A stretch of 64,000 nucleotides of DNA. Source: Thermodesulfobacteriota bacterium. Lineage in GTDB: Bacteria; Thermosulfidibacterota; Thermosulfidibacteria; Thermosulfidibacterales; B14-G1. The DNA lies in NCBI GenBank assembly GCA_024274915.1, contig JAJSAC010000012.1, forward strand, positions 1 to 64,000, read 5' to 3'. The translations under genes were made by a program, and so were the position numbers. Position 1 is the stretch's first letter; every line of letters begins with the position of its first letter. Shown in pieces: positions 25,704 to 55,263 of this stretch. The notes below the pieces were generated by a model. The model was not told where the DNA came from. It ran no database searches and saw only the letters and a list, made by a program, of their open reading frames with translations.

Positions 25704-28235
25704 CTATCGACCCTTTCTAAAAACGATACCTTCTTCGGGGATGTGCTCCCACTTTAGTTCCATGGGCACGGGGGTGGCTTTCCAGATGTGCTGGCAGTAC
25801 TCATTGATGGATCGGTCCGATGAGAACTTGCCCATGCGGGCCACGTTGAGGATGGATATCCTGGTCCAGCGGTCCTTGTCCATGAAAACCTGAGCCACAT
25901 GATCCTGGCAATCCACGTAGGACTGATAGTCGGCCAGGAGCATGTAGCGGTCGCGATGAAGGAGGGAATCTACCAAGGGCTTGAAGAGCTGGACATCTCC
26001 CTGGGAAAAGTGGCCCGAAGAGACGAGGTCCAGGGCCGCCCTGAGCTCGTGGTTGTTCTGGTAATAATCCATGGGGTGATAACCCGAGGCCTTGAGGGCC
26101 ATGACCTCCTCAACGTTGAGGCCGAAGAGAAAGAAGTTTTCGGATCCCACGGCCTCCCTGATCTCCACGTTGGCCCCGTCCAGGGTGCCGATGGTAAGAG
26201 CACCGTTCATGGAGAATTTCATGTTCCCCGTGCCCGACGCCTCCTTACCCGCCAGGGAGATCTGCTCCGAAAGGTCGGCCATGGGATAGACCAGGTGACC
26301 CATCTTCACGTTGTAGTTGGGTATGAAGACCACCTTGAGACGGCGCCTCATTTGGGGGTCGTTGTTAACCACCTGGGCCACAGAGTTGATGAGCTTGATG
26401 ATGAGCTTGGCCATGGAGTATCCTGGGGCCGCCTTGCCACCAAAAACAAAAGTCCTGGGGGTAATGTCCATGTCGGGATTGGCCTTGAGGCGGTTGTAGA
26501 GGGTGATGATGTGGAGAACATTGAGGTGCTGACGCTTGTACTCGTGGATGCGCTTCACCTGAACATCGAACATGGAGGCGGGATCGATGAGGACCTCGTG
26601 GGCCATGGCCCTCCTGGCCACCTCGTCCTTGTTCTCCTCCTGGACCTTCTGCCATTCCTCCCGGAAGCCGGCATCGTCGGCCATGTTCTCCAGTTCTCTG
26701 AGCTGAAAAAGGTCTGTGATCCAACCCTGGCCAATGGCTTGGCTGATGAGACAGCTCAGCCTGGGATTGGCCACCATCATCCAGCGCCTGGGAGTGACAC
26801 CGTTGGTGACATTGAGGATCTTCCCCGGCCACAGCTCCTGGAAGTCTCGGAGGGTGGAGCTCTTCAATAGCCCGGTATGAAGCTCAGCCACTCCGTTGAT
26901 GGCGTGGCTCCCCACGCAGGCCAGATGGGCCATGCGCACGAATCTGCCTCCCGTCTCGTCTATGATGGACATGCGGCGGAGCTTGGGAGTGTCTCCGGGA
27001 AACCGGACCCTCACCTCTTCTAGGAATCGGCGGTTTATTTCGAAAGTGATCTCCAAATGTCTGGGCAACAGGGCGCCGAAGAGGTCCAGGGACCACCTCT
27101 CCATGGCCTCAGGCAGGAGGGTGTGATTGGTGTAGGAGAGGACTTTGGTGGTCACCTTCCATGCCTCCTCCCATCCCATGCCGTGCTCGTCCATAAGGAG
27201 GCGCATGAGCTCGGGCACAGCCAGGGCGGGATGGGTGTCGTTGAGCTGGACGGCAAAGGCCTCGTGAAAGTTGACCAGGCTCTTATACTTCAATAAGTGG
27301 AAGCGGATCATATCCTGGAGGGAGGCGGAAACGAAGAAGTACTGCTGCTCCAGTCTGAGGCGCTTGCCTCCCATAGGCTCGTCGTTGGGGTAGAGGACCT
27401 TGGTTATTGTCTCCGCCTTCACCTTCTCTTCCACAGCCCCGTAGTAGTCCCCCACGTTGAACTCCTCGAAGTCGAAGGTGTCCACTGCCTCGGCGCTCCA
27501 CAGGCGGAGGACGTTGACGTTGTTCACCCTGTAGCCCGGGATGGGGGTGTCGTAGGCCACGGCATTCACCATGCGGGCAGGGACCCATCTCATTCTGAAG
27601 CGGCCTTCCTGATCTGTGTAGGCCCGGGTATACCCTCCGAAGCCTATACCGTAACAGCCCTCGGGTTTCTTGATCTCCCAGGGATTGCCAAAGTGGAGCC
27701 ATTGGTCGCTCAACTCCTTCTGCCAGCCGTCCTCTATGATCTGGTGGAACATGCCATGCTCGTACCTGATGCCGTAACCTATAGCCGGCACCTGAAGGGA
27801 GGAGAGGGAATCCAAGTAACAAGCAGCCAGACGACCAAGGCCCCCGTTCCCCAGGCCAGGCTCGGGTTCCTGGTCAGCGATATCCCGGATGTTGAGGCCA
27901 GTCTCCTCCAAGGCCTGGACCACCTGCTGGTAGATGCCCAGGTTCACCAGGTTCTTCTCCAGGTGGGGTCCCATAAGGAACTCAGCGGAGAGGTAGCAGA
28001 CAATACGAACCCCCTTGGCTATGAGGTTCTCTAGGGAATTTATGAAGAGGTGCTGCATTCTGTCCCGAATGGTGTAGGCCACAGCCATGTAAAGGTCATG
28101 CATAGTGGCTGTCTCTACAGGTTTACCCTGGCGATAGAAGAGATTGTAGACAATGGCCCTCTTCAGCTCATTCACCTCTTCCTTGCGGGCGCCAACTCCG
28201 GCTTTTCCTGAGTTGCCTTCAAACTCCTTCATCAT
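25704..28235 (-). CDS. glgP: Glycogen/starch phosphorylase
   Basis: EPGLGNGGLGRLAACYLDSL, NGVTPRRW, KRIHEYKRQHLN, SLAGKEASGTGNMKFSMNGALTIGTLDGANVEI; start chosen at MMKEFEG. Confidence 0.96.
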   Translation of the reverse strand: MMKEFEGNSGKAGVGARKEEVNELKRAIVYNLFYRQGKPVETATMHDLYMAVAYTIRDRMQHLFINSLENLIAKGVRIVCYLSAEFLMGPHLEKNLVNLGIYQQVVQALEETGLNIRDIADQEPEPGLGNGGLGRLAACYLDSLSSLQVPAIGYGIRYEHGMFHQIIEDGWQKELSDQWLHFGNPWEIKKPEGCYGIGFGGYTRAYTDQEGRFRMRWVPARMVNAVAYDTPIPGYRVNNVNVLRLWSAEAVDTFDFEEFNVGDYYGAVEEKVKAETITKVLYPNDEPMGGKRLRLEQQYFFVSASLQDMIRFHLLKYKSLVNFHEAFAVQLNDTHPALAVPELMRLLMDEHGMGWEEAWKVTTKVLSYTNHTLLPEAMERWSLDLFGALLPRHLEITFEINRRFLEEVRVRFPGDTPKLRRMSIIDETGGRFVRMAHLACVGSHAINGVAELHTGLLKSSTLRDFQELWPGKILNVTNGVTPRRWMMVANPRLSCLISQAIGQGWITDLFQLRELENMADDAGFREEWQKVQEENKDEVARRAMAHEVLIDPASMFDVQVKRIHEYKRQHLNVLHIITLYNRLKANPDMDITPRTFVFGGKAAPGYSMAKLIIKLINSVAQVVNNDPQMRRRLKVVFIPNYNVKMGHLVYPMADLSEQISLAGKEASGTGNMKFSMNGALTIGTLDGANVEIREAVGSENFFLFGLNVEEVMALKASGYHPMDYYQNNHELRAALDLVSSGHFSQGDVQLFKPLVDSLLHRDRYMLLADYQSYVDCQDHVAQVFMDKDRWTRISILNVARMGKFSSDRSINEYCQHIWKATPVPMELKWEHIPEEGIVFRKGR

Positions 28236-28257
28236 CCCTCTTTCTCCCTTTGAGGGC

Positions 28258-29862
28258 TCAACCATCCAGCCCAATGATCTCCAGCCTGTGCTCCGCCGTG
28301 GGACGGGCCTTGAACGGACCTTGAGTGAGGAGGAACGCCTCCCCTTCCAAGTGGAGCCCTCTAACCAGGTTCCTAGCAGTCTCCTCCCAGCCTTTGTCTC
28401 TTTCTTCCAGGAAGATAGGCCACACCCCGTAGGAGAAGAGGAGATCCTGACAGGTCTTCCTGGATCCGCTCACGGCCAGGATCCAATAGGGCAGGCGGAA
28501 CCTGGTGATGTTTCGGACCGTGGATCCGTCCTCCGTTGGACAAACCACCGCCGCCACGTCCAAGCTCTCTACCATGGAGTTGAGGCTCCAGGCAATGAGG
28601 TCTACCCAGGACTTCCCCCATTTTTGGTCTTATGGGTCAGGGCGAGGCGTTCCGACCGCAGAGATGATAGCTCATAGTTCATAGCTCGTAGTTCATGGTT
28701 CATAGCTCACAGTTGCTATCAGCTATGAGCCATCAGCCATGAGCCATGGGCAAGGGAGGAATGCCCCGCCCTTTCACTTGTTGGAAAGAAAAATCCAGGA
28801 TTCTGAACATGATGCCTTTACCAGGAAGGGAACTTTGGGGGAAGTCCTGAGGTCTACCACCTGGGAGCCAGGGTGGACCCTGGTTCCCAGGATCATCTCC
28901 TGGAACCTCCTCCTTTCCAAGTGGGGTTCCGTGGCTTGGGCAATCTTGGCCAGCATCCTGGTGGCCTCCACTGGGTACTTGCCCATGGCCGATTCCTCTG
29001 AGAGCATGACGGCGTCACTGCCGTCCAGGATAGCGTTGGCCACATCCGTGGCCTCGGCCCTGGTGGGCCTGGGACTTCTGGTCATGGACTCCAGCATTTG
29101 GGTGGCGGTGATGACGGGCTTCCCCCGGGCCACCATGATTCCGTCAGCGGCCTCGACGATATCATCCATCCTGTCCACCACAGAGGAGCGCTCTATCTTG
29201 GCTATGACGAAGGGATCGAATCCCATTTGGTGGGCAGCCCTCCTTACGTCCTCAACGTCCTGGACCTTGCCCACAAAGGACTGGCTCACGGCGTCCACCC
29301 CGTGTTCCAGGGCGAAGGCCAGGCACTCCCTATCCCTCTCGGTGAAGGCGCTGGTGCCCAGGTCCAACCCAGGGACGTTGAGACCCTTTTTAGACCTGAG
29401 TTCTCCCCCAGCCAGAACGGTGCAGAGGATGTCCTGATCCACAATTCCATCTATCACCATCTGGATGAGACCATCGTTCAGAAAGAGGACGTCCCCCCTC
29501 CTCACCACCCCGGGAAGCTGGGCCATGGTGACGGAGACCACCCCCTGGGTCCCCTTCACCTGGCGGGTAGTGAGGGTGAACTTCTGGCCCTCTTTCAACA
29601 CCACAGGTTCATTTTCAAACTCGCCGATGCGCAGTTTAGAACCGGGAAGGTCGGCCATGATGGCCACGGGTATACCCGTCTCATGGGAGGCCAGGCGAAT
29701 CCTCTGGATGACGGCGGCATGGTAGTCGAAATTTCCGTGGGAGAAGTTGAGCTTGGCCACGTTCATTCCCACCTCCAAGAGCTCTTTGAGAACCTCCATG
29801 GAGTCCGAGGCGGGACCTATGGTGCAAACAATCCTGGTTTTTTGTTTTGGTAACTCTCCCAT
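28258..29862 (-). pseudogene. pyk: Pyruvate kinase, interrupted by a 243-bp MITE-like element and lacking about 26 catalytic residues
   Basis: [36 protein letters not shown] and [13 protein letters not shown]...[28 protein letters not shown] upstream of the element; PK C-domain ORF 28258-28575 downstream. Confidence 0.92.
28607..28849. mobile_element. MITE-like element, copy 1 (243 bp), inserted in pyruvate kinase
   Basis: 14-bp perfect TIR CAGGACTTCCCCCA / TGGGGGAAGTCCTG; 9-bp direct repeat AGGTCTACC at 28598-28606 and 28850-28858; no ORF; homologous to 54286-54501. Confidence 0.92.
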
Positions 29863-53321: not shown

Positions 53322-53363
53322 GGATAGGGGCCCACTACCCTTAGAAGGAAAGGGCCCCTATCC
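53322..53363. terminator. Bidirectional hairpin between convergent genes
   Basis: GGATAGGGGCCC (53322-53333) / GGGCCCCTATCC (53352-53363), 12-bp perfect stem; no clear T-run. Confidence 0.5.
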
Positions 53364-54230
53364 GCCTACAGCCCCATCCTGAATAGGTCTAATGTAAGTA
53401 ATCCGATCTATGCGGAAGGTCTTCACACGGCCCTCGGGGGTACACAGGGCCTTGAGGTAGTGGACCTTACCGGTGGAGAAGAGGGCCAAGGGAGAAATAC
53501 ACCGCCGACCTTGGACATCTCCACCGTCATAGAAGATCTCCAAGGCCTTCCCCTCCCTCACCGCAAGAAGGAGCCTCTCCACCCGGCTGTCTCTCCTACC
53601 CACCTCGTCCCAACGGGCCTGGTAGCGGAGCATGGAGTCAGGTGGACCAAAGAGGGAAAAGAGCTCAGATACCCTATCATAGGGCCCCAACCCCAACTTT
53701 TTCATCATACCTGTGAATATGTAGGCCGTATGCTTGGCATCGGCTAAAGCCCTATGGCAGCCCTTAAAAGGACTCCTCCACACATGGATAAGGTACGAGA
53801 GGCTGTGGTCAGCCACCTCAGGAAAATGGCGGCGGGATATGCGACGGGTGTCCAGCACAGGATTATCCAACAGAGATATACCTCTGCGCTGGAAGTTTAT
53901 GGAAAGTACCTTGAGATCAAAAGAGGCGTTATGGGCCACCAAGATACTTCCTTTCACAAAATCTTTAAACCTGTGGGCCACCACACTAAAGGGGGGGGCA
54001 TGGCGAACCATAGTATTGTCTATTCCGTGGATCCTCACCACCTTTTCAGGAATTGACACGGGGGGCTTTACCAGACTTACGAAGGTGTCCACCATCCTCC
54101 CATCCCGTATCTTAGCCGCCCCTAGCTCCACCACATGGGACAAGGGTGAGAGCCCCGTAGTCTCCGTGTCAAAGACCACTATGGGCACATCTTTTATGAG
54201 CAGAGACTCCAACAGCCTCCTCCTTTCCAT
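53358..54230 (-). CDS. DnaQ-family 3'-5' exonuclease fused to a WYL-like C-terminal domain
   Basis: VFDTETTGLSPLSHVVELGAAKI, LVAHNASFDLKVL, HRALADAKHTAYIF; C-terminal REGKALEIFYDGG...RCISPLALFSTGKVHYLKALCTPEGRVKTFRIDRI. Confidence 0.85.
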   Translation of the reverse strand: MERRRLLESLLIKDVPIVVFDTETTGLSPLSHVVELGAAKIRDGRMVDTFVSLVKPPVSIPEKVVRIHGIDNTMVRHAPPFSVVAHRFKDFVKGSILVAHNASFDLKVLSINFQRRGISLLDNPVLDTRRISRRHFPEVADHSLSYLIHVWRSPFKGCHRALADAKHTAYIFTGMMKKLGLGPYDRVSELFSLFGPPDSMLRYQARWDEVGRRDSRVERLLLAVREGKALEIFYDGGDVQGRRCISPLALFSTGKVHYLKALCTPEGRVKTFRIDRITYIRPIQDGAVGG

Positions 54231-54285: not shown

Positions 54286-54501
54286 CAGGACTTCCCCCAG
54301 TTCTACCCTCAGATGGCAGGGCGGGGCGTTCCGAGCGCAGAGATGATAGCTCATAGCTCGTAGTTCATGGTTCATAGCTCACAGTTGCTATCAGCCATGG
54401 GCAAGGGAGGAATGCCCCGCCCTTTCACTTATCTGAAAGGTAAAGTCTAGGATTCTGAACGCCATACCTTCACCAAGAAGGGATTTTTGGGGGAAGTCCA
54501 G
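54286..54501. mobile_element. MITE-like element, copy 2 (216 bp), intergenic
   Basis: TIRs CAGGACTTCCCCCA / TGGGGGAAGTCCAG (13/14); direct repeat GAAGAATAC at 54277-54285 and 54501-54509; extended similarity to 28607-28849. Confidence 0.9.
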
Positions 54502-54522: not shown

Positions 54523-55263
54523 TCAACCTGGCACTCCATTGTTATTCACTAGCTCCAGGACCTGGATAAGACGAGATATGGTATGATGGGGCTTGGGCAG
54601 GTGACTCGGATATCCCTTCCCCTCTGGGTCATAATGCACAGCACCCATGCCCACCCTCAAAGCACCTAACACATCGGCCTCCGGGGTGTCCCCCACGTGA
54701 AGGGCGGCCTCGGGCTTCACACCCATATGATAAAGGGCCATACGAAAGATCTCTGGCCTAGGCTTTCTAAACCTCACCTCTGAAGAGAAGAGTAGCACTT
54801 TAAATTTGGGATAGACCCCGTAGTGTTTAAGCAAAGCGCGCTCGATCTGTCCATGAATGGTATTGGAGATAATGGCCAGCTTCACCCCCCGCCTCTCCAA
54901 CTCCCCCAGAGTTTCCATAGCCCCAGGCAGTGGACCGGGCAACCTCTCAAAAACCGCCTTTACGTAAGCCTTTTCCAAAACGTCCAACGGGGCATTCCCC
55001 ACCCCCAGATAGGCCACAGTCCGTCTGATCACCTCGTCCAGGGGCACCTCTAAGCCCGATGTCTCCCTCTCCAAGTTCATTTACACCACCACTTCATAAA
55101 AGGCCTCCTCCACCTTCTCGGGAGGCACCCCTAATACTTGGGAAAAAGATTTAACCCGGAGTCTTCTCACCTCTTCCAATTCCTGAGGCGACAGAAAACC
55201 AAAGAGGGTCTCCCAGAAATCGAAAGTGACCGCCTCTATCCCACCCACTCTCTTCCCTCCCAC
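54523..55263 (-). pseudogene. HAD-family hydrolase split by an in-frame TAA at 55081-55083
   Basis: ORF 55081-55263 has motif I (VTFDFWETLFGF); ORF 54523-55080, same frame, has motifs II-IV (LAIISNT, RKPRPEIF, HVGDTPEADVLGA). Confidence 0.8.

Follow-up and report, generated by a model that had tools for sequence, protein, structure and literature searches.

The pyruvate kinase (PK) gene in the 64,000 nt of DNA analysed here (the window, located in contig C2 of a 2.03 Mb, 77-contig assembly that is 93% complete) carries two separate lesions, an inserted MITE, a non-autonomous inverted-repeat element, and a 78-bp in-frame deletion. We estimate at roughly 90% the probability that these events, independent of each other, have converted the gene into a young pseudogene and that PPDK, to judge from the gene content, probably handles the conversion of PEP to pyruvate. 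According to this account, a transposase recognising CAGGACTTCCCCCA ends would act in trans to move a MITE without a transposase of its own, and this high-copy element has entered the C-terminal third of the PK gene. Filling-in of a staggered cut generated the 9-bp duplication, and the protein is now truncated within the element, as shown by the anatomy of the element, its copy number and an empty site in a relative. The loss of 78 bp, itself directly visible but only apparently the product of a deletion between short CCGGGG repeats, removes the conserved RGDLGVE loop and the barrel helix that follows it.

A pyruvate kinase gene with two lesions

The 5′-part of the PK gene (28850 to 29862, minus strand) has an ATG at 29862 and encodes the barrel domain (Pfam PF00224, E 1.6e-94), with a frame that enters the element and stops at 28774, ~24 codons in. 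The 3′-part (28258 to 28606, minus strand) encodes the PK_C domain (Pfam PF02887, E 5.5e-11), and the longest ATG-initiated ORF remaining in it is 28575-28258. The two parts share a frame only once the element has been taken out together with one of the duplicated 9-mers; after this removal, a single minus-strand ORF of 450 codons extends from 29862 to 28258 and reads ...QVVDLIAWSLNSMVES..., and an earlier note on this DNA was exact both in these coordinates and in the in-frame joined reading. A functional pyruvate kinase has a continuous barrel plus C-terminal domain in a single frame, and here that frame is interrupted by the element. The glycogen phosphorylase gene, glgP (25704 to 28235, minus strand; Pfam PF00343), is intact and follows the PK stop codon after ~22 bp.

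The element (28607 to 28849) is 243 bp in length, with perfect 14-bp terminal inverted repeats (TIRs) at 28607-28620 and 28836-28849 (CAGGACTTCCCCCA and TGGGGGAAGTCCTG, 100% complementary), and is bordered by exactly matching 9-bp copies of AGGTCTACC, the target-site duplication, at 28598 to 28606 and 28850 to 28858. Its two arms, which share an internal inverted repeat (AGGGCGAGGCGTTCC and GGAATGCCCCGCCCT), enclose a degenerate 7-bp tandem array (28667 to 28748; period 7 in Tandem Repeats Finder) made up of two mutually inverted blocks. It is <500 bp in length and has no transposase ORF; its identity to a consensus built from 34 copies is 96.3%, and a BLAST search of the host genome returned 40 strong matches. 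Short length without a transposase gene, TIRs, a duplication in the 8-11 bp range, high copy number and an empty site in a relative are all features expected of a MITE, and the proposal in the earlier note that a MITE-like element cuts the PK gene is borne out by the TIRs, the 9-bp duplication, the 40 matches and that empty site.

The second lesion was revealed by alignment with the same-genus genome G002, which encodes an intact, 474-aa PK at the same position with neither element nor deletion. At the junction 29121 to 29122 (minus strand), 26 codons (DLGVE...RRG in G002) are missing in frame, corresponding to residues 248-273 in G002 numbering (segment DLGVEMPIERIALAQKSITRKAHRRG) in the catalytic barrel, and positions 249-273 of the Pfam PK model are unmatched in the window's gene. 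This segment is complete in all 82 PK rows compared (G002 counted twice), with Asp 248 and Gln 262 invariant; in characterised PKs this Asp of the RGDLG motif is a ligand of the metal ion. In G002, CCGGGG borders the missing stretch on both sides, suggesting a deletion between short repeats. The complete barrel with an RGDLG(V/I)E loop, expected of a functional pyruvate kinase, is thus lacking by 26 residues and, because these are conserved and include the invariant Asp, the encoded protein should be inactive even without the element. A restored reading frame is not a restored enzyme: removal of the element should give back the former and not the latter, and the ancestral allele that the earlier note considered reconstructable is not recovered by this step, as the 78-bp deletion is still present. 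Some cells in a mixed population may have an intact gene, or the deletion may be a local assembly error.

A gene that is split but functional, with the barrel fragment (28774-29862) active alone or together with the C-domain fragment, is distinctly unlikely. Both fragments are open and, relative to G002, dN/dS is 0.17 for the joined PK gene and 0.15 for GlgP, values that are a rough guide with dS near 1 and synonymous sites near saturation. Similar dN/dS values are, however, also expected if the lesions are recent, and the barrel fragment lacks the 26 conserved residues, including the invariant RGDLG Asp. The closeness of the PK value to that of GlgP argues for constraint over most of the divergence, and so the decay of PK looks recent from these comparisons.

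Where the window has SQVVDL, followed by the element and then IAWSLNSMVESLDVAAVV, G002 reads SRMVNLIAESLDRIVGDLDVAAVV, and directly downstream of its intact PK gene is a glgP that is 79% identical to that in the window. The search for relatives with the element sequence as native coding DNA, proposed in the earlier note, was negative; with an intact, element-free PK in G002, the element is therefore an insertion and native coding DNA is excluded. Repeat-induced misjoins are possible in principle, as at least 30 contig ends are in or beside element copies, and a contig misassembled through such a high-copy repeat could conceal an uninterrupted native gene. But the flanks are parts of one gene, rejoin in frame, have a matching 9-bp duplication and are in the same gene order as in G002, a pattern that a misjoin of unrelated loci would not give, and a chimeric join at the element is consequently very unlikely. 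It is scarcely credible that the element is a translated insert tolerated by the protein, in the manner of the in-frame palindromic elements of Rickettsia (PMC10969869), for although the RNA fold of the 28607-28849 copy is very stable (-104 kcal/mol, z -7.4), any MITE would fold stably on account of its inverted repeats, and the frame stops ~24 codons into the element with none continuing into the C-domain.

A MITE family with recent mobility

With ≤1 mismatch allowed, the terminal repeat has 133 matches in the host genome versus 5 for a reversed-pattern control. Exact target duplications of 8-11 bp flank 19 of the 34 complete copies, and 4 more have a 7-bp or one-mismatch duplication; the control, randomly paired flanks, gave 0 in 2000. 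Most of the 34 are 94-99% identical to the consensus, and the frequent lengths (195, 216, 223, 230, 237, 244, 251 and 258 bp) differ mostly by steps of 7 bp, with the array exchanged for other sequence in a few copies (L050, L055, L056 and L042). The window contains a second copy (54286 to 54501), 216 bp in length with an 8-bp duplication (AAGAATAC), that is intergenic, flanked by ORFs at 53358-54230 and 54523-55080. Judged by their translations, one of these neighbours is exonuclease-like and the other encodes a HAD-like hydrolase. G004, a member of the sister genus, also has elements with the same ends. These results support a MITE family with recent mobility, consistent with the earlier claim that the element is, or recently was, mobile, a claim in agreement with both the family copies and the element-free orthologue at this position in G002.

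For 23 copies bordered by a duplication, the sequences on either side were joined, and continuous frames reappeared in three more genes. These encode a histidine kinase with a HAMP domain that spans the junction after joining (element at L055 1416-1659, G000 C34), a nucleotidyltransferase (PF01909; L002 1502-1745, G000 C36) and a lipoprotein-like protein of 215 aa, when restored, that has no Pfam match (L050 2996-3240, G000 C66). For the rest of the copies examined, joining the flanks revealed no convincing interrupted gene. The family also complicates assembly, and caution is warranted: the contig ends inside or adjoining a copy (e.g. L004, L005, L014, L022, L041 and L054) number at least 30, and the MITE is therefore a major cause of assembly fragmentation.

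The family is new but of a kind already known, and gene-disrupting non-autonomous elements have been described before. By description, the Chunjie MITE of Geobacter uraniireducens (235 bp; ~38 copies that vary over 178-235 bp, one of them inside a metabolic operon; PMC10969869) is similar in size, copy number and variable length and likewise has conserved terminal repeats as well as direct repeats, whereas here a 7-bp repeat array is present and the coding sequence of several genes is interrupted. A minisatellite inside a MITE is shared with BrickBuilt of Porphyromonas gingivalis, in which it lies between a leader and a tail with small inverted-repeat ends (PMC4596501). The BrickBuilt units are, however, 23 bp rather than 7 bp and BrickBuilt is always intergenic in P. 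gingivalis, whereas the present family interrupts at least four coding sequences and has clear 8-11 bp target duplications. Short non-autonomous elements have likewise inactivated chromosomal genes in the case of pyrE in Sulfolobus solfataricus, mcy in Anabaena and, by MITEAba12, hns in Acinetobacter baumannii (PMC10969869, PMC6382973). The present case differs in that the target is the only PK found, in an uncultured lineage, and has a second, independent lesion. The view of gene inactivation by MITEs is unchanged, and the PK gene provides a clear-cut natural example of a process that is already well known.

The search for a transposase

A MITE is expected to take its transposase from an autonomous IS that shares its ends. 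The search turned up no such partner in which these ends enclose a transposase that could be identified, and there is no match to DDE_Tnp_1 (Pfam) in the host assembly. Several contig ends have the MITE terminal repeat followed by a different interior, namely L174 and L177 (G000 C64 and C54) and L175 and L178 (G001 C102 and C123). The G001 version of the C54/C64 ends is 83% identical and then has a short ORF, for which there was no family, plasmid or viral match, and a G004 fragment leads into a right-hand repeat that is degenerate. At a guess, the C54/C64-type ends may be those of the parent IS, which, as a multi-copy sequence, would have been dropped from the bin. Two candidate parents were rejected. 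A 946-bp TIR-flanked stretch in G003 has what we read as an IS3-type OrfA-like fragment and no target duplication, and an IS1634-family IS, with its transposase in G004, has different ends and is nested in two MITE copies. The two MITE copies in which this IS1634-family-like IS appears inserted are at contig ends L168 (G000 C75) and L167 (G000 C63). A promoter scan around the element gave nothing above chance, and the exact 19-base element end is absent from viral contigs.

Probable loss of pyruvate kinase and a possible bypass

A second PK was not found in the host genome, although one could be located in the part missing from the 93% complete assembly. PPDK is able to convert PEP to pyruvate, and the host genome encodes a full-length PPDK (892 aa, 1384 bits to TIGR01828) together with a full-length PEP synthase (819 aa, 1212 bits to TIGR01418). 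That the last glycolytic step is lost or bypassed, as the earlier note took to be implied, is plausible because these two enzymes are full-length and no other PK was found, and it holds to that extent, as a reading of gene content; with PK bypassed, the PEP-to-pyruvate conversion probably falls to PPDK. PK is present in 3 of the 9 genomes of the order, and was not found in G003 and G004 (94-96% complete), both of which have PPDK_N matches. Clostridium thermocellum strains similarly have no PK and encode PPDK (PMC3561251). In both systems a working PK gene is lacking and a PPDK gene is present, but here the PK gene persists as a wreck, and intact and absent states are seen in relatives.

Tentatively, and with less than even confidence, we suggest that this lineage is now giving up pyruvate kinase while keeping PPDK: the gene is intact in one relative of the same genus, carries two fresh breaks here and was not found in the sister genus. 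One agent of the loss would then be this minisatellite-bearing family of MITEs, mobilised by a transposase for which no known family was matched. With one relative intact, a doubly hit pseudogene here and no PK found in other relatives, the locus offers a readable example, from a wild lineage, of the loss of a central enzyme. Within the order (nine genomes), glgP was not found in any member other than the host and G002, and only in these two does the PK-glgP pair (25704-29862 in the window) occur; the genus may have acquired the pair, or other members may have lost it.
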